Shown here piece by piece: positions 2,671 to 47,521 of a stretch of 64,000 nt of DNA. Every line of letters starts with the position of its first letter. The stretch's first letter is position 1. Under the pieces are notes generated by a model. It searched no databases, was not told where the DNA came from, and saw only the letters and a program-made list of their open reading frames with translations. This DNA is from Alphaproteobacteria bacterium (GTDB lineage Bacteria; Pseudomonadota; Alphaproteobacteria; Rhodospirillales; WMHbin7): NCBI GenBank assembly GCA_015231795.1, contig JADGAX010000001.1, forward strand, positions 744,001 through 808,000, written 5' to 3'. A program made the position numbers and the translations under genes.

Positions 2671-3930
<1,260 letters not shown>

Positions 3931-4262: not shown

Positions 4263-4343
4263 CGTCATGCCCAGACTTGTTCCGGGCATCCACGCCCAGT
4301 GGGCCGTCAGAACATGGATGGCCGGGTCAAGCCCGGCCATGAC
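4263..4343. repeat. Dispersed palindromic repeat, CGTCATGCCC type, copy 1
   Basis: It starts CGTCATGCCC and ends with GCCCGGCCATGACA, so the outer ends pair (GTCATG/CATGAC). It contains a left hairpin around CCGGGCAT and a right hairpin GCCGGGtcaaGCCCGGC. The same family recurs at 14628-14687. Such intergenic repeats are common in alphaproteobacterial genomes. No protein is encoded. Confidence 0.75.
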
Positions 4344-4352
4344 ATTGAAGAA

Positions 4353-4560
4353 CCGGCGTCTGAGGGCAAACAATGGGAGCGCAGCGACCTAGGCCCAACG
4401 GGCCGCGCGCCTAATGGCGCGAGAGCCAAGGGTTGCGGAGCAACCCGCCCGGCGCTTGAGGGCAAACAATGGGAGCGCAGCGACCTAGGCCCAACGGGCC
4501 GCGCGCCTAATGGCGCGAGAGCCAAGGGTTGCGGAGCAACCCGCCCGGCGCCTGAGGGCA
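4353..4560. repeat. 96-bp tandem repeat related to the structured repeat family
   Basis: TGAGGGCA begins at 4361, 4457 and 4553, an exact 96-base period giving two full units and the start of a third. Each unit carries hairpins GGCCCaacGGGCC, CGCGCCtaatGGCGCG and GGGTTGCggaGCAACCC followed by GCCCGGCGC(C/T)TGAGG. The last hairpin and tail are shared with the larger repeat at 17020, 42841 and 46770. With 4263-4343 it fills the 360-base gap between the tRNA and the prenyl synthase gene. Not a CRISPR: the unit is too long and there are no variable spacers. Confidence 0.85.
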
Positions 4561-8190: not shown

Positions 8191-9522
8191 ATGCACCATG
8201 TGCCCGCCACCTTGTTTGGCCTTGACCCGTTATGGCTGTCCAGCCTGATCCTGATCGTCACCTACGCCGTCATCATTTCCGAGAAGATCAACCGCGCCAT
8301 CGCGGCACTGGCGGGGGCCGGCGTCATGATTCTCGCCGGAGCGCTCAATCAGGAAATGGCGGTCAGGGGCATCGACTTCAACACCATAGCGCTTCTGACC
8401 GGCATGATGATCATCGTGGCCATCACCAGAAAATGCGGCGTCTTCCAGTATGTCGCCGTCGTCTCGGCCAAACTCGTCAAGGCCAATCCGGCGGGCGTTC
8501 TGCTGATGCTGCAAGTCATCACAGCTGTCTTTTCCGCCCTGCTGGACAATGTGACGACGGTGCTGTTGATCGTGCCGGTCACGCTGGTGATCTGCGAAGA
8601 ATTGAAGATCAAGCCCTATCCGGTGCTGGTGGCGGAAATCTTCGCCTCGAACGTCGGCGGCACGGCGACCTTGATCGGCGACCCGCCCAATATCCTGATC
8701 GGCTCGGCGACCGGCATGTCCTTCAACGAGTTTGTCTTCAATCTGGCCCCCATCGCCATCGTTCTGCAGGTCATGTATCTGGGCATCTTCCACTTCATAT
8801 GGGGCCGCAAGATGCGCGCCTCGGACGAGAATCGCGCCCGCGTCATGGCGATGGACGAAAGACTGGCGATTACCGACGCGCGGCTGTTGAAGCAATCGAT
8901 GGGCGTTCTGGCCCTTGTCATTCTGGGCTTCGTGATGGCGCATCCTTTGCACCTGGAACCCGGCACCATCGCCATGACCGGAGCGGCCATCTTGATGCTG
9001 CTCAACAATTTCGGCAAAAAGGCCGAAGACCAGTCGGAACATGTCCATCACACATTCGGCGAAGTGGAATGGGTGACCATCTTCTTCTTCGTCGGCCTGT
9101 TCATCGTGGTGGCGGGCGTTGAGCATGCCGGGCTTTTGAACCTGCTGGCCGAAAAGATGCTGGCCCTGACCGGCGGCGACATGAAAGCGACCGCCCTGGC
9201 CATTCTGTGGTCGTCGGCCATTCTGTCGGCCATCGTCGACAACATTCCCTTCGTCGCCACCATGATTCCGCTGATTGAAAGCATGGCGCCTGCCTTTGGC
9301 GGCCCAGAAGCGCTGAAACCCCTTTGGTGGTCGCTGTCGCTGGGGGCCTGCCTGGGCGGCAACGGCACCTTGATCGGCGCTTCGGCCAATCTGACCGTGG
9401 CGGGACTGGCCGAGCGCGGCGGCGTTACCTTCCGCTTTCTGCCCTTCATGAAACTGGCTTTCCCTTTAATGCTGATTAGCATCGCCATTTCAAACATCTA
9501 TGTGATGTGGCGTTACCTGTAA
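8191..9522 (+). CDS. ArsB/NhaD-family ion transporter, paralogue 1
   Basis: A 443-residue polytopic membrane protein of the IT superfamily, with about 11-12 hydrophobic segments. It carries the two family signatures LLDNVTTVLLIVPVT and LIGDPPNILIGSA in the first half and counterparts AIVDNIPFVATMIP and GNGTLIGASANLTVAGLAE in the second half, showing the internal inverted repeat. Substrate is not readable; Na+/H+ exchange or anion transport are both possible. It is clearly a duplicate of the gene at 10043-11386, with near-identical blocks such as EKINRAI, LNQEMAVRG and DFNTIALLTGMMIIV. MamN of magnetosome islands belongs to the same broad family, but no other mam gene is here. Confidence 0.85.
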   Translation: MHHVPATLFGLDPLWLSSLILIVTYAVIISEKINRAIAALAGAGVMILAGALNQEMAVRGIDFNTIALLTGMMIIVAITRKCGVFQYVAVVSAKLVKANPAGVLLMLQVITAVFSALLDNVTTVLLIVPVTLVICEELKIKPYPVLVAEIFASNVGGTATLIGDPPNILIGSATGMSFNEFVFNLAPIAIVLQVMYLGIFHFIWGRKMRASDENRARVMAMDERLAITDARLLKQSMGVLALVILGFVMAHPLHLEPGTIAMTGAAILMLLNNFGKKAEDQSEHVHHTFGEVEWVTIFFFVGLFIVVAGVEHAGLLNLLAEKMLALTGGDMKATALAILWSSAILSAIVDNIPFVATMIPLIESMAPAFGGPEALKPLWWSLSLGACLGGNGTLIGASANLTVAGLAERGGVTFRFLPFMKLAFPLMLISIAISNIYVMWRYL

Positions 9523-9590
9523 CTGCAGGAACAGAGCACTTGCCAAGCGAACAGCCTGACGTCATCATGATAAATACCTAGGGGAATACC

Positions 9591-10043
9591 ATGAGCTGCA
9601 AAGACATCATGAACAGTGCGCCGCCGGTCCTTCAAAAGGGGACCACCGTGGCTGATGCCCTGGCGCTGCTGTGCCAGGAAAAGCGCATGAATCTGCCCGT
9701 GACCGACGCCAAGGGGCGTTATCTCGGCCTGTTCGGGGCGCATCAGATTTTGATGCTGGCCTTGCCCAAGGGCGCCAGGGCCGACGACGAGCAGCGCCTC
9801 GCCTTCATTGCCGACACAGTTGGCGACGTTGTCAGCCGGTTGAAGTCGGTGGCGGCACATCCGGTCGAACGCTATATGGACAGCGAATCGGAAACGCTGA
9901 CTCCCGATACCCCCTTGGTTGAAACCTTGCATATTTTATATCTGCGCCGCGAGGACCTGCCCGTGGTCGATCCCGCCAGCCAGCAATTGGTGGGCATCGT
10001 CACCATCCGCAGCTCGCTAGGCAAATTGATGGTGAGCGGATAA
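9591..10043 (+). CDS. CBS-domain pair protein
   Basis: A 150-residue soluble protein made of two CBS motifs: one near the N-terminus (IMNSAPPVLQKGTTVADALALLC...NLPVTDAKGRYLGLF) and one after residue 95 (VERYMDSESETLTPDTPLVE...DLPVVDPASQQLVGIVT). CBS pairs bind adenine nucleotides and gate transporters and enzymes. It sits between two near-identical transporters, and its TAA shares a base with the ATG of the second (TAATG). That placement suggests an adenylate-sensing regulatory subunit for one or both; this is inference. Confidence 0.85.
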   Translation: MSCKDIMNSAPPVLQKGTTVADALALLCQEKRMNLPVTDAKGRYLGLFGAHQILMLALPKGARADDEQRLAFIADTVGDVVSRLKSVAAHPVERYMDSESETLTPDTPLVETLHILYLRREDLPVVDPASQQLVGIVTIRSSLGKLMVSG

Positions 10044-11386
10044 TGCATCCAGAAGGCGGCGCTGTGACGACCATTCTGTTTGGCCTCGACCCCATGTGGG
10101 TGTCCGGCGTCATTCTGATCGCCACCTACGCCGCCATCATGAGCGAAAAGATCAACCGCGCCATCGTCTCATTGCTGGGCGCTGGCGTCATGATCCTGGT
10201 GGGCGTGCTCAATCAGGAAATGGCCGTGCGCGGGGTGGACTTCAACACCATCGCCCTTTTGACCGGCATGATGATCATTGTGTCCGTCACCAGAAAATCC
10301 GGCGTCTTTCAGTATGTCGCCATTTGGTCGGCCAAACAGGTCAAGGCCAATCCGGCGGGCATCATGCTGATGCTGCAAATCGTCACCGCCGTCTTTTCGG
10401 CCCTGCTCGACAACGTGACCACCGTGCTTTTGATCGTGCCGGTCACCATGGTCATTTGCGACGAATTGAAGATCAAACCCTATCCCATCCTGGTCGCCGA
10501 AATCTTCGCCTCCAATATCGGCGGCACCTCGACCCTGATCGGCGATCCGCCCAACATCATCATCGGCTCGGCCACCGGCCTGACCTTCAACGACTTCCTG
10601 TTCAACTTGGCCCCCGTGGCCATTGTGGTGCAGATCGTCACCGCCGCCATTTTCCATGTCATGTGGGGCAGAAAACTGCACGCCACGGCGGAAAACCGCG
10701 AGCGGGTGATGAAGTTCAACGAGCTTGAAGCCATCACCGACTGGCGGCTCTTGAAACAGTCTTTGTCCGTGGTTTTTCTGGTCATTCTGGGCTTCGTGCT
10801 GGCTCGCCAGCTGCATCTTGAACCCGGCACCATCGCCATGACCGGCGCCGCCGTGCTGATGCTGCTGGCCAATTTCGGGCGCGACGCCGAAACCCAAAGC
10901 CATGAAGTGCATCACACCTTCACCGAAGTCGAATGGATCACCATTTTCTTCTTCGTCGGCCTTTTCATGGTGGTCAGCGGCGTCGAACATGCGGGCGTTT
11001 TGAAGATGCTGGCCGAGCACTTGATCGCCGCCACCGGCGGCGACTTGGCCGTGACCGCCATCGCCATCCTTTGGTCGTCGGCCATCCTGTCGGCGGTCAT
11101 CGACAACATTCCCTTCGTCGCCACCATGATCCCGCTGATCAAGAACATGGCGCCCACCTTCGGCGGACCTGAAGGGCTGCTTCCTCTTTGGTGGTGCCTA
11201 AGCCTGGGCGCCTGCCTGGGCGGCAACGGCACCTTGATCGGCGCCTCGGCCAACCTGACCGTGGCCGGACTGGCCGAGCGCGGCGGCACGGCCTTCAAAT
11301 TCATCCCTTATATGAAAATCGCCTTCCCCTTGATGCTGATCAGCATCGTGATCAGCACCTTTTACGTCTGGTGGCGCTATCTTTAG
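10043..11386 (+). CDS. ArsB/NhaD-family ion transporter, paralogue 2
   Basis: A 447-residue polytopic transporter closely resembling the protein at 8191-9522 along its whole length and sharing the motifs LLDNVTTVLLIVPVT, LIGDPPNIIIGSATG, VIDNIPFVATMIP and GNGTLIGASANLTVAGLAE. Differences are mostly conservative, concentrated in the N-terminal leader (MHPEGGAVTTILFGLD) and the central loop (KLHATAENRERVMKFNELEAI). Translation is coupled to the CBS gene by a one-base stop/start overlap. A terminator-like hairpin follows. Confidence 0.85.
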   Translation: MHPEGGAVTTILFGLDPMWVSGVILIATYAAIMSEKINRAIVSLLGAGVMILVGVLNQEMAVRGVDFNTIALLTGMMIIVSVTRKSGVFQYVAIWSAKQVKANPAGIMLMLQIVTAVFSALLDNVTTVLLIVPVTMVICDELKIKPYPILVAEIFASNIGGTSTLIGDPPNIIIGSATGLTFNDFLFNLAPVAIVVQIVTAAIFHVMWGRKLHATAENRERVMKFNELEAITDWRLLKQSLSVVFLVILGFVLARQLHLEPGTIAMTGAAVLMLLANFGRDAETQSHEVHHTFTEVEWITIFFFVGLFMVVSGVEHAGVLKMLAEHLIAATGGDLAVTAIAILWSSAILSAVIDNIPFVATMIPLIKNMAPTFGGPEGLLPLWWCLSLGACLGGNGTLIGASANLTVAGLAERGGTAFKFIPYMKIAFPLMLISIVISTFYVWWRYL

Positions 11387-11400
11387 CTGGCTGCGCGAAT

Positions 11401-11430
11401 AATCGCCTTGGGGCACCCCCCAAGGCGATT
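11401..11430 (+). terminator. Hairpin between convergent genes
   Basis: AATCGCCTTGGGG pairs perfectly with CCCCAAGGCGATT (13 bp) across a CACC loop. It lies 15 bases after the second transporter and 17 bases after the DUF1476 gene reading the other way, so it could serve both. No T-run follows on either strand. Confidence 0.55.
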
Positions 11431-11446
11431 GTGTCGGCGATGCGAA

Positions 11447-11767
11447 TCAGGACTTATGCTCGTCTTGCACTTGCTTCCTGGCGATGTGCAGGAACTCGCC
11501 CAGTTTCTCGCGGATGGTCTGGTGGTCGGCCTTGCCGTCCAGATCCTTGGCCAGCTTGCGCACCACGTCCTCGTCGCCCTTTTCCTCGAAATCGGCATGC
11601 ACGACGTCCTTGGCGTAATCCATCGCCGCCTGGCCGATCAGCCCCAGCAATTCGGCGGCCCACAGGCCTGCCAGCTTGTTCCTGCGGGCTACCGCCTTGA
11701 ATTCCAAGGCCTCGTCTTGCTGATGCTTTTGCTCGTGGGCTTTGCTTGTCTTGCGAATGTCAACCAT
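11447..11767 (-). CDS. DUF1476 protein, F1F0-ATPase inhibitor (zeta) subunit
   Basis: A 106-residue soluble, largely helical protein with the DUF1476 hallmark sequence FKAVARRNKLAGLWAAELLG and DFEEKGDEDVVRKLAKDL. In Paracoccus and other alphaproteobacteria this family is the zeta subunit that binds F1-ATPase and blocks ATP hydrolysis. The frame opens further upstream, but the ATG at 11767 (MVDIRKTSKAHEQKHQQDE) matches the family start and has AAGGA seven bases before it. It diverges from the cupredoxin-like gene. Confidence 0.88.
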   Translation of the reverse strand: MVDIRKTSKAHEQKHQQDEALEFKAVARRNKLAGLWAAELLGLIGQAAMDYAKDVVHADFEEKGDEDVVRKLAKDLDGKADHQTIREKLGEFLHIARKQVQDEHKS

Positions 11768-12471: not shown

Positions 12472-12567
12472 GGGAGACCGGCGACGGACGAGTTCCTCGC
12501 CAACCCGGTCAGGTCCGGAAGGAAGCAGCCGTAACGAGTTCAGATTCGGGTCGGCGTCCGGTCTCCC
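12472..12567 (+). ncRNA. ffs: Signal recognition particle RNA (4.5S, small type)
   Basis: A 96-base segment whose ends pair (GGGAGACCGG at the 5' end with CCGGTCTCCC at the 3' end) and which contains the invariant SRP domain IV core: GGTCAGGTCCGGAAGGAAGCAGCC, split here as GGTCAGGTCCGGAAGG and AAGCAGCC, with the tetraloop in the middle. It forms the RNA scaffold for Ffh in membrane-protein targeting. Its position directly before dnaX is typical of proteobacteria. Confidence 0.95.
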
Positions 12568-12594
12568 ACCCTTTAGGCTTCCTTTGAACTCGCC

Positions 12595-14627: not shown

Positions 14628-14687
14628 CGTCATGCCCGGACTTGATCCGGGCATCCATGGATCGCCGGGTCAAGCCCGGCGATGACG
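14628..14687. repeat. Dispersed palindromic repeat, CGTCATGCCC type, copy 2
   Basis: About 60 bases between ybaB and recR. CGTCAT pairs with ATGACG at the ends, with inner hairpins GCCCGGacttgatCCGGGC and GCCGGGtcaaGCCCGGC and a central ATCCATGGAT palindrome. Same family as 4263-4343. Inside an operon it probably persists as a folded mRNA segment and may tune recR expression. Confidence 0.8.
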
Positions 14688-14703
14688 ACAAGGGAATATC
14701 ACC

Positions 14704-17019: not shown

Positions 17020-17163
17020 TTATACCAAGCGGCAGAAAGAATGGCTCATTGCCGCTTGGACGCGGGCAAGGCCCGCGCGCGCCCATAGGCGCGGGAGCCA
17101 AGGGATGCGGAGCATCCCGCCCGGCGCATGAGGCTTGCATTAATCGGTTACGATTAATGCAAA
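17020..17163. repeat. Structured palindromic element, copy B
   Basis: Between qmcA and the SGNH gene. Successive hairpins: CCAAGCGGCA/TGCCGCTTGG, CGCGGGCaagGCCCGCG, CGCGCCcataGGCGCG, GGGATGCggaGCATCCC, then TTGCATTAATCGgttaCGATTAATGCAA. Order and loops match copies at 42841-42975 and 46770-46921 (the last in reverse orientation), while the stem sequences differ but stay complementary. The minus strand is open in a frame encoding LAPAPMGARGPCPRPSGNE, matching the peptide encoded by the copy inside the chaN-like gene. Confidence 0.85.
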
Positions 17164-17167
17164 CGTA

Positions 17168-17872
17168 TTAAGCGATCAGAACGGATTTTGGTCCGGGAAA
17201 GTGCAAACCCTCGGCCCTGGCGGAACCCGGCGCCGTGGGATTGAGATAGGAACGCCAAGCCGACCAGCGTCCGATATGATTGGCCAACGCCGCATGGCCT
17301 TCCGATGTCGGATGGACGCCATTGCCGCTGTCCAGGCTGCGCAGCCAGCGCCTGTCGCGCCCCAAGGTCGCCATCAGATCGAGATAGGGAATGTTCAGCC
17401 GCTCGGCCAGCATATGGTAGGCATCGTTCAAACAAGCCATGCGTCCTTGATTGAGCGACCAGACATGGCCTTCGGCATCGCGCCAAGCCGCCTTCATCCT
17501 GACCGGCGGCGGCCCCACCCACAAAGTGTGATAGCGGCGAAGACTGGTGCGCAAGGCGGTTTCGGCCCAATACAGGCTTTCCGGCAGCGACAGACGAACG
17601 CCGTCCTTTTCGCTGGCCGCCATGTCGGCAACGCCAAAGCAGAAAAGGACAAGAGCCTGAGCGCCCACCGGCAAGCGGGCCGCCAGTTCATCTTCGACGC
17701 GGGAAGCCAAATCGCGCGAGGTTTCGCAAGGAACGCCCAGCGACATCAGCTCGAACCGCCCGCCGAACGATGTTTCCGAGCGCGACAGTTGGCCCGTCCA
17801 GCCGACGCCGCCGGAATCGCCCAACGCCGTGGCCAAATCGTCGCCCAAAATGCAGATACGTAAACGGCTCAT
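17168..17872 (-). CDS. SGNH/GDSL hydrolase-fold protein with degenerate catalytic site
   Basis: A 234-residue protein with the SGNH-hydrolase layout. Block I is ILGDDLATALGDSGGVGWTG, and the C-terminal block is SGNGVHPTSEGHAALANHI. In active family members block I reads GDSL with the nucleophile Ser, and the last block has DxxH; here Ser is replaced by Asp and the Asp by Asn (NGVH), with only His left. It may be non-catalytic or use another mechanism. ATG at 17872 has AGGAGG upstream. No signal peptide is visible. Two FNR/CRP-like palindromes lie 12-62 bases upstream. Confidence 0.75.
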   Translation of the reverse strand: MSRLRICILGDDLATALGDSGGVGWTGQLSRSETSFGGRFELMSLGVPCETSRDLASRVEDELAARLPVGAQALVLFCFGVADMAASEKDGVRLSLPESLYWAETALRTSLRRYHTLWVGPPPVRMKAAWRDAEGHVWSLNQGRMACLNDAYHMLAERLNIPYLDLMATLGRDRRWLRSLDSGNGVHPTSEGHAALANHIGRWSAWRSYLNPTAPGSARAEGLHFPGPKSVLIA

Positions 17873-42835: not shown

Positions 42836-42840
42836 CTGTT

Positions 42841-42975
42841 ACAGGCGGCAAAAGGCAGACTCTTTGCCGCTTGGACGCGGGCGAGGCCCGCGCGCCGTTG
42901 CTGCGGGAGCCAAGGGGTGCGGAGCATCCCGCCCGGCGCTTGAGGCTTGCGCTTATCGGCTACGATGAGCGCAAC
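42841..42975. repeat. Structured palindromic element, copy C
   Basis: Begins GGCGGCAAA, pairing with TTTGCCGC, then GGACGCGGGCgagGCCCGCG, a degenerate middle hairpin, GGGGTGCggaGCATCCC, and TTGCGCTTATCGgctaCGATGAGCGCAA. Same plan and orientation as copy B at 17020, with altered but still pairable stems (one G-T wobble in each of the last two). Confidence 0.8.
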
Positions 42976-42981
42976 CAGCTA

Positions 42982-43320
42982 TTAAGGACAGGCGGTTAGT
43001 TCCACCGTCGGCGCATCGGGCGCCAGCTCGCTCATCGCGTGGCATTCACCAAACCAACACAGGCGATAATCCGTGGCGTAGTAGGATTGGGTCAAGATCA
43101 GCCTGTCCAGGGGGGGGATCTTGGGCCGCCAGCGCCAGAAGCCGTTTTTGAGCACGGCGTCCTCGCCCGGTTCCATGCCGGCACCCGAGCCTTGGATTCT
43201 GGCCTCGACAAGAACCAGACGCCCCTTTGCCGCTTGCCAGTCTTCTTCCCAGGTCACTTTCTCGACCGAATGCGTCCAGGCCAGCGTGTAAAGAACCCCA
43301 GCCAGCAGACAGACATTCAT
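42982..43320 (-). CDS. DUF1850 protein of a TAXI-TRAP operon
   Basis: 112 residues with a hydrophobic N-terminus (MNVCLLAGVLYTLAWTHS) that is a signal peptide or anchor. The remainder (KVTWEEDWQAAKGRLVLVEARIQGSGAGMEPG) matches DUF1850, a family regularly encoded next to TAXI-type TRAP permeases. Its start overlaps the permease stop as ATGA. Function is unknown; an accessory role in substrate uptake is inferred. Confidence 0.85.
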   Translation of the reverse strand: MNVCLLAGVLYTLAWTHSVEKVTWEEDWQAAKGRLVLVEARIQGSGAGMEPGEDAVLKNGFWRWRPKIPPLDRLILTQSYYATDYRLCWFGECHAMSELAPDAPTVELTACP

Positions 43321-46373: not shown

Positions 46374-46398
46374 GACGTTTCTCCTGGCTGGTGTTATT

Positions 46399-46428
46399 TG
46401 ATCCAAGGATAGCTTATAGCTTGGATCA
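46399..46428. promoter_or_regulatory. Inverted repeat in divergent promoter region
   Basis: TGATCCAAG and CTTGGATCA form a perfect 9-base inverted repeat with a 12-base spacer, centred about 40 bases from each of the two divergent start codons. Candidate operator for a dimeric regulator controlling the TAXI-TRAP operon and/or the chaN-like gene. Confidence 0.5.
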
Positions 46429-46456
46429 CTTCCAAGCGAAGACAAGGGCAAAGTCA

Positions 46457-47521
46457 ATGCGGATGCGTCATTTTCTTGTTTTGGCATCTTTCGTCATGAT
46501 GGGGGGCTGCGCCCTTTCCCCGCCAGAGCAACAAACCATCTGGCTGGTCGGTGAAAAGCGCTATATCTCCGAATCCGATGCCTTGGAACGCATGGCCGCC
46601 GCTCCACTGCTGCTGCTGGGCGAAAGCCACGACAACCAGGAACATCACCGCCTTCAAGCCCATGTCGTGAAAAAACTGGCTGACAGGGGCCAGACGCGCG
46701 CGCTGGCCTTCGAGATGATCGAACGCGACCGGCAACCCGTCATTGATGCGCATCTGGCCAAGCAGATCGTTATACCAAGTTGCGTTAATCGTGACCGATT
46801 AACGCAAGCCTCAGGCGCCGGGCGCGTTCCTCCGGAACGCTTGGCTCCCGCGCCTATGGGCGCGCGCGAGCCTTGCTCGCGTCCAAGCGGCGATGAGTCA
46901 AAAGTTCCGCCACTTGGCATTACGGCGGAAAGTTTGGGGCAAGCGTTGGACTGGGACAAAAGCGGCTGGCCCGATTTCGCCCTCTATGCCCCTGTTTTTC
47001 AGGCTGGTCTGGATGGCGGCTGGCCGATCCGCGCCGCCAATCTGCCAAAATCGCTGTACAAGGCCGTCGGAAAAGCCGGAGGGCTGGACGCGCCGCAAGA
47101 AGCGCGGCTGGGGCTGGATCGCCCCTTGCCCCCAGAAATCGCCGCTGGCCTAAGGCAGAATTTGATCGACAGCCATTGCGGTCTGCTTCCCGAAACCGCC
47201 CTGCCCGCCATGATGCGCCTGCAAACCGCCTGGGATGGGGCAATGGCCCTGACCATGACGGAAAGCCTGCAAAAGGATGGCGTCGTGTTGATCGCGGGGT
47301 CGGAACATGCGCGCCTGGACCGCGCCGTCCCCTTACATCTGGCCCGCCTGCTGCCTGAGGTGAAACGGCTGGCCGTGGCCTTCAAGGAACAGACCGATCC
47401 GCCCACGCCGCCCGAAAGCGAAGACTGGCCTTTTGATCTGATTTGGTTCACGCCGCCCACGCCGACAGTGGACCATTGCGCCCAATTGAAAGAGCGGATG
47501 AAAAAGAAGAAAGGAGGCTGA
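46457..47521 (+). CDS. ChaN-family (DUF399) lipoprotein with in-frame repeat insertion
   Basis: 354 residues. Starts RMRHFLVLASFVMMGGCALS with a lipobox (MGGC), so a lipid-anchored envelope protein. ChaN features: LLLLGESHDNQEHHRLQ, ALAFEMIERDRQPVI, LGQALDWDKSGWPDFALY and VVLIAGSEHARLDRAVP. ChaN-type proteins bind haem and are linked to iron uptake. Between HLAKQ and ITAESLG about 50 extra residues (IPSCVNRDRLTQASGAG through ESKVPPLG) are encoded by a copy of the palindromic element; the frame stays open. Whether the enlarged protein folds is unknown. ATG 46457 has AAGGG before it. Confidence 0.8.
   Translation: MRMRHFLVLASFVMMGGCALSPPEQQTIWLVGEKRYISESDALERMAAAPLLLLGESHDNQEHHRLQAHVVKKLADRGQTRALAFEMIERDRQPVIDAHLAKQIVIPSCVNRDRLTQASGAGRVPPERLAPAPMGAREPCSRPSGDESKVPPLGITAESLGQALDWDKSGWPDFALYAPVFQAGLDGGWPIRAANLPKSLYKAVGKAGGLDAPQEARLGLDRPLPPEIAAGLRQNLIDSHCGLLPETALPAMMRLQTAWDGAMALTMTESLQKDGVVLIAGSEHARLDRAVPLHLARLLPEVKRLAVAFKEQTDPPTPPESEDWPFDLIWFTPPTPTVDHCAQLKERMKKKKGG
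46770..46921 (-). repeat. Structured palindromic element, copy D, inside the chaN-like gene
   Basis: Reverse-orientation copy. On the plus strand: TTATACCAAG, then TTGCGTTAATCGtgacCGATTAACGCAA, GCGTTCCtccGGAACGC, GGCTCCCGCGCCTATGGGCG, CGCGAGCcttGCTCGCG, and CCAAGCGGC with GCCACTTGG, ending GGCATTA. TTATACCAAG and CTTGGCATTA form imperfect terminal inverted repeats. Its stems differ from copies B and C by paired changes. Confidence 0.85.

Follow-up and report, generated by a model that had tools for sequence, protein, structure and literature searches.

This 64,000-nucleotide stretch of an alphaproteobacterial genome (Alphaproteobacteria bacterium, GCA_015231795.1, contig JADGAX010000001.1, positions 744,001 to 808,000; hereafter the window) contains three dispersed copies of an element built as a row of hairpins, together with a tandem relative at 4353. 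The paired arms of these hairpins differ between copies and yet remain paired, which a preliminary description had read as a sign that the fold itself is maintained, in the manner of either a structured RNA or a palindromic transposable element. The locus therefore raises the question of whether the fold is indeed kept, on which strand and for whom. Our results support both halves of that description, as the element is flanked by target duplications, is missing from an empty site in a sister genome and has a fold that is maintained on one strand. We propose, with modest confidence, that it is a non-autonomous mobile element whose hairpins are kept, with one fixed strand folded, probably as RNA, for the element itself.

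The copies, referred to as B, C and D, and the tandem units are made up as follows (P1 to P5 are the hairpins; LM-1 is the sister genome):

17023 to 17167, forward strand: copy B, complete, 145 bp, TACC...CGTA, missing in the LM-1 ortholog
17020 to 17022, no strand: left target duplication of B, TTA
17168 to 17170, no strand: right target duplication of B, TTA
17025 to 17059, forward strand: P1 of B, CCAAGCGGCA...TGCCGCTTGG, with the terminal inverted repeat in its outer arm
17061 to 17077, forward strand: P2 of B, CGCGGGC-AAG-GCCCGCG
17078 to 17093, forward strand: P3 of B, CGCGCC-CATA-GGCGCG
17095 to 17101, forward strand: unpaired conserved motif GAGCCAA of B, AGCC invariant
17102 to 17118, forward strand: P4 of B, GGGATGC-GGA-GCATCCC, arms most variable, GGA loop conserved
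17119 to 17133, forward strand: unpaired conserved motif GCCCGGCGCATGAGG of B
17135 to 17162, forward strand: P5 of B, TTGCATTAATCG-GTTA-CGATTAATGCAA
42842 to 42981, forward strand: copy C, roughly 140 bp, ends worn, limits read by eye
46773 to 46919, reverse strand: copy D, full element, 147 bp, within a chaN-like gene
46770 to 46772, no strand: target duplication of D, TTA (a single TTA in LM-1)
46920 to 46922, no strand: target duplication of D, TTA
46391 to 47521, forward strand: the chaN-like gene (PF04187, E 2.5e-42), 376 aa, compared to 326 aa in LM-1
4375 to 4462, forward strand: tandem unit 1, short form, GGGAGCGCAGCGACC-P2-P3-GAGCCAA-P4-GCCCGGCGCTTGAGGG
4471 to 4558, forward strand: tandem unit 2, short form, period 96

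All stems quoted in the preliminary description are present as written, and the paired arms change together. Copy C, which has TTA at 42839-42841 and at 42982-42984, carries TTGCGCTTATCG/CGATGAGCGCAA and GGGGTGC/GCATCCC with one G-T pair in each; copy D, read in reverse, carries TTGCGTTAATCG/CGATTAACGCAA, GCGTTCC/GGAACGC and CGCGAGC/GCTCGCG, and both tandem units contain GGGTTGC/GCAACCC. The RNA fold of B (17020-17175) reaches -82.5 kcal/mol with a z score of -6.39 against shuffles, and that of the tandem pair a z score of -2.30, with 3 of 200 shuffles equally good; we thus conclude that the hairpins are not due to chance. In the lowest-energy fold of B alone, the P3 stretch is paired differently.

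Across the family, full-length copies are about 145 bp long (mostly 137-150 bp) and consist of five hairpins between the ends TACC(A/G)...(C/T)GGTA, each of which is formed by a hairpin's outer arm; the two ends share 9 to 14 of their outer 20 bases. P1 has up to 15 bp, P2 a loop of AAG, GAC or TTGAG, P3 a 4-base loop and occasionally two adjacent G-A mismatches, P4 4 to 7 bp and a loop that is mainly GGA or GGAT, and P5 about 10 bp. The conserved unpaired motifs are RAGCCAAG in the interval between P3 and P4, the GGA loop and CGCCCGGCGNNTGAGGG between P4 and P5, and in the predicted five-hairpin RNA RAGCCAA and NNTGAGGG would form single-stranded stretches. Short forms, which are often in tandem and often begin with GGAGCGNAGCGACT, retain P2 to P4. 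No match to the element was obtained in Rfam at the gathering score with the whole window and five collected loci, and three matches far below that score were judged to be chance. A 101-bp copy (L168, 1107-1207) has both TACC ends and a TAA duplication and has lost P3 and P4, which reflects either loss after insertion or movement of an element without its core. Two candidate functions were dropped. A conserved GANTC as the function was rejected, since GANTC occupies the same position of P1 in 17 of 41 long copies and is found anywhere in only 20 of the 41. A role of the 3' GAGGG as ribosome-binding site, prompted by copies lying just upstream of an ATG, was abandoned because about as many copies lie sense as antisense (10 versus 12 of 40 loci).

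The claim that paired changes reflect a maintained fold was assessed in four sets of copies. For P4, the search motif left the 12 arm letters free and the pairing was therefore not built into it; 150 of 168 distinct contexts, a count that includes L074 and L177, which look like chance matches, pair at 6 of 6 positions with 68 different arm pairs. Counting each arm pair once, 375 of 408 cells are paired, compared to a mean of 209 and a maximum of 242 after shuffling. Fifteen full-length copies (11 of 17 non-redundant ones and four added relatives) have 87.1% of the cells of all five hairpins paired, as opposed to 71.0% when shuffled and 33.4-40.0% when the partners are slid, the structure being taken from one of their own rows (L101), which gives it an advantage over the slid versions; 26 of 44 pairs changed on both sides. 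In 10 further full-length copies, mainly from Acetobacteraceae (the remaining six without L093, and five added relatives), P1 to P4 are paired in 96.8% of cells versus 86.7% shuffled and 35.8-41.9% slid, with the structure from the first row and the poorly aligned P5 omitted, and both partners have changed in 9 of 28 pairs. Lastly, 91 core rows that are non-redundant at 86% gave 66 aligned cores after omission of 25 that were chance matches or had an irregular P2 or P3, and 54 of the 66 were counted; as the other 12 have a long or irregular P3, the P3 counts are flattering. The 54 cores are 93.2% paired, with a covariation score of 0.629 compared to 0.140 for shuffled and 0.139 for the best slid alignment, and two of five shuffle measures, namely both-sided changes and further pair types, are unexceptional (220 and 56 of 500 shuffles, respectively). 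Hence, all five hairpins show compensatory changes, and the covariation exceeds that in shuffled and slid controls, the latter of which keep the relatedness of the copies, so that kinship does not account for it. Eight pairs at sites shared with LM-1 were also examined for compensation, which are too few to serve as proof: both stem changes between copy C and its LM-1 counterpart are G-T, one P1 change between L024 and L068 is A-G, and L033 and L245 are probably not the same insertion.

A palindrome that is maintained as double-stranded DNA is expected to contain equal numbers of G-T and A-C mismatches. We identified hairpins by Watson-Crick pairs alone, which makes their choice neutral between the two types, and P1 or P5 may occasionally be a neighbouring hairpin. 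The distinct arms of 291 records contain 104 G-T and 28 A-C mismatches (p 2e-11), along with 55 A-G and 19 C-T; these p-values are optimistic, as arms are related by descent. The ratio of G-T to A-C is significant in P1 (31:10), P4 (29:8) and P5 (40:9) individually and uninformative in P2 (3:1), and a smaller first count under other rules gave 20:7 in P4, 8:6 in P3 and 6:3 in P5. In contrast, 781 control hairpins from the flanks (1500 of 2502 windows) gave 185:204, and 188:164 for A-G to C-T, and the difference in G-T to A-C between element and control has a p-value of 2e-10. Because the covariance model of the core (R1, 62 positions) tolerates G-T, copies were split by it, and those outside the model (70:20) lean as do those it finds (42:11). 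By genome group, one of which is a pooled genus, 30 have more G-T, 7 have more A-C and 33, L177 among them, are tied. Single-letter variants of a perfect arm pair that were seen once, in a sample of the copies of each genome, comprise 24 G-T, 3 A-C, 12 A-G, 1 C-T and 9 others. A strand mutation bias would need to be several-fold and include A-G to cause this pattern. Since G-T exceeds A-C and A-G exceeds C-T, and this lean is lacking in the control hairpins, the maintained fold is that of one strand.

The same counts bear on the idea that the fold is under no selection and that the arms are matched by quasipalindrome correction, that is templated repair between arms, along with gene conversion between copies. 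Such exchange would give the wholesale arm differences seen at one site between sister genomes for L031/L090 and L036/L232, which look like the outcome of unequal crossing-over or of exchange among copies or tandem units. Repair is strand-symmetric, however, and should leave G-T and A-C equal, which is at odds with 104:28 in the element next to 185:204 in the controls, and the conserved unpaired motifs would be left unexplained. We therefore regard this idea as highly improbable as a full account, and the earlier claim that paired changes mean a maintained fold stands overall, with the reservation that at shared sites exchange seems to have produced part of the variation in the arms.

With regard to mobility, both ends were recognised in 50 of 159 distinct cores with room for them. 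TNA is found on both sides of 34 copies and is identical in 29 of these, a number that is somewhat generous as the choice of ends favoured equal TNA. At the site of copy D, LM-1 is contiguous with one TTA compared to TTA-element-TTA here; copy D is a clean insertion, which added exactly 50 codons in frame and without a stop to the chaN-like gene. Copy B is missing from LM-1, and about 17 bp alongside also differ there, so that this site is not perfectly clean, while at the site of copy C LM-1 also holds a copy and P3 is partly deleted in the genome studied here. Among 16 LM-1 loci with a core within one mismatch, 7 align with a copy of this genome and 9 do not (the comparison covers the own copies then collected, those found later by R1 standing outside it); about half are thus unshared, and sites turn over between the sister species. 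The tandem site in LM-1 contains one unit with different P4 arms. Based on the TNA duplications, the empty D site and the unshared sites in sister genomes, we conclude that this is a transposable element, which moves like a miniature inverted-repeat transposable element (MITE), inserting at TNA and duplicating those 3 bp. Like MITEs, it is short and non-coding and has inverted ends (137-150 bp, TACC...GGTA), and it has left target duplications (29 of 34) and an empty site (D in LM-1). Other inserts were noticed in genome G002: the site of copy C (L219, 3815-4231) contains an unrelated insert of about 400 bp whose long inverted ends begin with TATACCAGTTTGCAGAATGAATAA and which may be a target of the same enzyme, and the site of copy B (L212, around 3332-3847) has a further insert, a few hundred bases long and likewise with inverted ends.

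To whom the fold matters can be judged from the host genes around the copies, for which 167 copies in larger loci were oriented by home-made, crude gene calls. The G-T to A-C ratio is 11:3 in antisense copies (p 0.06, not significant alone), 19:3 in convergent and 13:1 in divergent ones, and 5:0 in copies called inside genes in antisense. As the antisense copies are not reversed and the sense copies are not the strongest, the lean does not stem from neighbouring transcription, which suggests that the fold serves the element rather than host mRNA. Were the hairpins maintained by the host to stabilise or end the surrounding mRNAs, like REP/BIME, one would understand why 39 of the 40 own loci are intergenic by home-made gene calls and why 14 are convergent and 3 divergent (10 are sense, 12 antisense and 1 inside a gene). 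Yet the lean of 11:3 in antisense and 9:7 in sense copies is opposite to that expected from host transcription, the convergent excess shrinks over all 167 larger loci (50 convergent versus 32 divergent, with 33 sense, 31 antisense and 21 called inside), and with 7 of 16 LM-1 core loci aligning with an own copy the sites turn over, making host maintenance improbable in our view. The intergenic regions of the window comprise 20 co-directional, 4 convergent and 7 divergent ones. A smaller count of 29 core places contained no divergent one, and a general avoidance of divergent regions is unsupported by the fuller sets.

We hypothesize that a DDE-type transposase provided in trans acts on the TACC ends and moves the element, that the folded strand is an RNA made from the element, and that the element itself needs this fold, for its mobility or for transcript stability, and not to regulate an adjoining gene. 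Besides the wholesale arm differences described above, several observations weigh against such a mobile element with a fold of its own. Sense copies show no lean (9:7, and 3:4 in those called inside genes), nor does P3 (1:0, and 8:6 under a laxer rule), and A-G is not in excess in P5 (11:9); neither the TACC ends nor P5 is present in the short tandem forms; and folded single-stranded DNA would likewise favour G-T and A-G over A-C and C-T. In addition, no transposase with TACC ends turned up in the searches made. None of the 14 DDE_Tnp_1 loci found in 5 genomes, some of them truncated by a contig end, has TACC ends, and ISAzo13 (PF07592) gave no match in 8 genomes, where its control was equally silent. 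A scan of the loci then collected contained no larger relative with TACC...GGTA and equal TNA; one 1426-bp hit in L075 seems to span two distinct copies.

The chief alternative to RNA is single-stranded DNA. The folding strand might be DNA that is single-stranded in transposition or exposed at replication, as for IS200/IS605 ends and integron attC, and this would explain why the lean is towards one strand and persists in antisense copies, and why there is a hairpin at either end. Single-strand transposition is not known to leave a target duplication, whereas duplications are found at D and others, with 29 of 34 TNA-flanked copies having equal TNA. Furthermore, the Y1 transposase PF01797 has 0 matches in this genome (G000), its control being positive in 6 of 14 genomes. 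We consider the DNA explanation possible, though on balance unlikely, and as the target duplications are of the double-strand kind, RNA is the likeliest folded form. A stronger version of the RNA proposal, which we put forward as a speculation with a slightly smaller chance of being right, is that the spread depends on the element's own structured RNA: a double-strand transposon that duplicates its target would have to be transcribed and folded, with the RNA as scaffold, guide or regulator of the partner enzyme, and selection on the fold would extend across the whole class in an element without a protein gene.

The element is not confined to the copies in the window; a genome search yielding no others would have counted against the preliminary description. 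In this genome of 3.63 Mb, R1 detects 46 core matches (E <= 0.01), and relatives also occur in other families. An even sample of 385 genomes from the class gave matches in 36, including this one, with only 14 candidates scored per genome and copy numbers thus being lower bounds, and in 13 of 299 genomes drawn from the phylum, all 13 from the same class (the class of 266 unlisted genomes is not shown). The exact pattern occurs in at least 119 stretches in named genomes, and the holders among the matches listed include Magnetospirillum, Paramagnetospirillum, Telmatospirillum, Terasakiella, Roseomonas and relatives, Acetobacteraceae and others. A core within one mismatch is present in 13 of 80 genomes, namely G000 and relatives, with 174 matches in G025 alone; a reversed control pattern matched once over all 80. 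No match was found in plasmids with three single-element queries or in phages with one. One core, at about 3914 of L165, lies in a record labelled Stygiobacter. Stygiobacter is outside the Proteobacteria; mislabelling, contamination or transfer is possible.

We recognised no published description of this five-hairpin family in a literature searched largely without subscription journals. By description alone, the nearest relative would be the CIR repeats of Caulobacter and Brucella (Chen and Shapiro 2003), as reviewed in PMC2229807 and PMC10969869. According to these reviews, CIR repeats are alphaproteobacterial intergenic repeats of 100-150 bp with TA termini and an RNA model with two long end hairpins and GANTC at a hairpin loop, comparable to the GANTC in P1 of 17 of 41 copies. 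They are also described there as about 110 bp with two arms and a linker, as having a conserved GANTC and as lacking terminal repeats and intragenic copies, whereas our element has five hairpins in mostly 137-150 bp, GANTC anywhere in 20 of 41 long copies, a TNA duplication and one copy in a gene. Correia/NEMIS, ERIC and RUP, as described in PMC2229807, are likewise non-autonomous, shorter than 200 bp and equipped with inverted ends, target duplications and stable transcript folds, but form one end-to-end stem loop, are mostly A+T-rich and have TA termini, unlike the G+C-rich row of five hairpins with TNA duplication. REP/BIME are similar in being numerous G+C-rich intergenic palindromes in mosaics and tandems; according to PMC2817692 and PMC3733652, REPs are 20-40 bp long and mostly tagged GTAG or CGTC, the GTAG type being tied to a Y1 (RAYT) transposase, whereas G000 contains no PF01797 match that could be a cognate enzyme. 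Rickettsia palindromic elements, as described in PMC2229807 and PMC5656822, are alphaproteobacterial palindromes inserted in frame inside protein genes, as is copy D. In-frame insertion is no rule here, and a corresponding reading-frame rule was rejected, since in 25 of 38 copies of 137-150 bp the length plus 3 is not a multiple of three. In-gene copies amount to 1 of 40 own loci, which is in frame, and to 21 of 167 larger loci, counted irrespective of frame by the crude gene caller.

For small bacterial palindromic repeats, it is usually left open whether the fold is selected or a by-product. Here, a strand-specific mismatch test with a flanking hairpin control favours the fold of one strand, and the split by orientation relative to host genes suggests a constraint that lies with the element. 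If the folded form is RNA, a widespread mobile family carries a structured RNA without an Rfam match, and with up to 174 core matches in one genome this could be tested by RNA-seq and mobility assays.

A different repeat around GGATGGCCGGGTCAAGCCCGGCCATGAC (window 4263-4343) lies directly 5' of the tandem units, and a separate short palindromic repeat is located at 14628-14696; both have many matches in genomes G001-G004, some of those of the palindromic repeat being on both strands at one place. The stretch at 8213-11393 consists of tandem paralogous parts of about 1.3 kb each, and the 72 bp at 11387-11458 correspond to about 4.6 kb in LM-1. A small signal recognition particle (SRP) RNA gene (RF00169) is found at 12472-12570.
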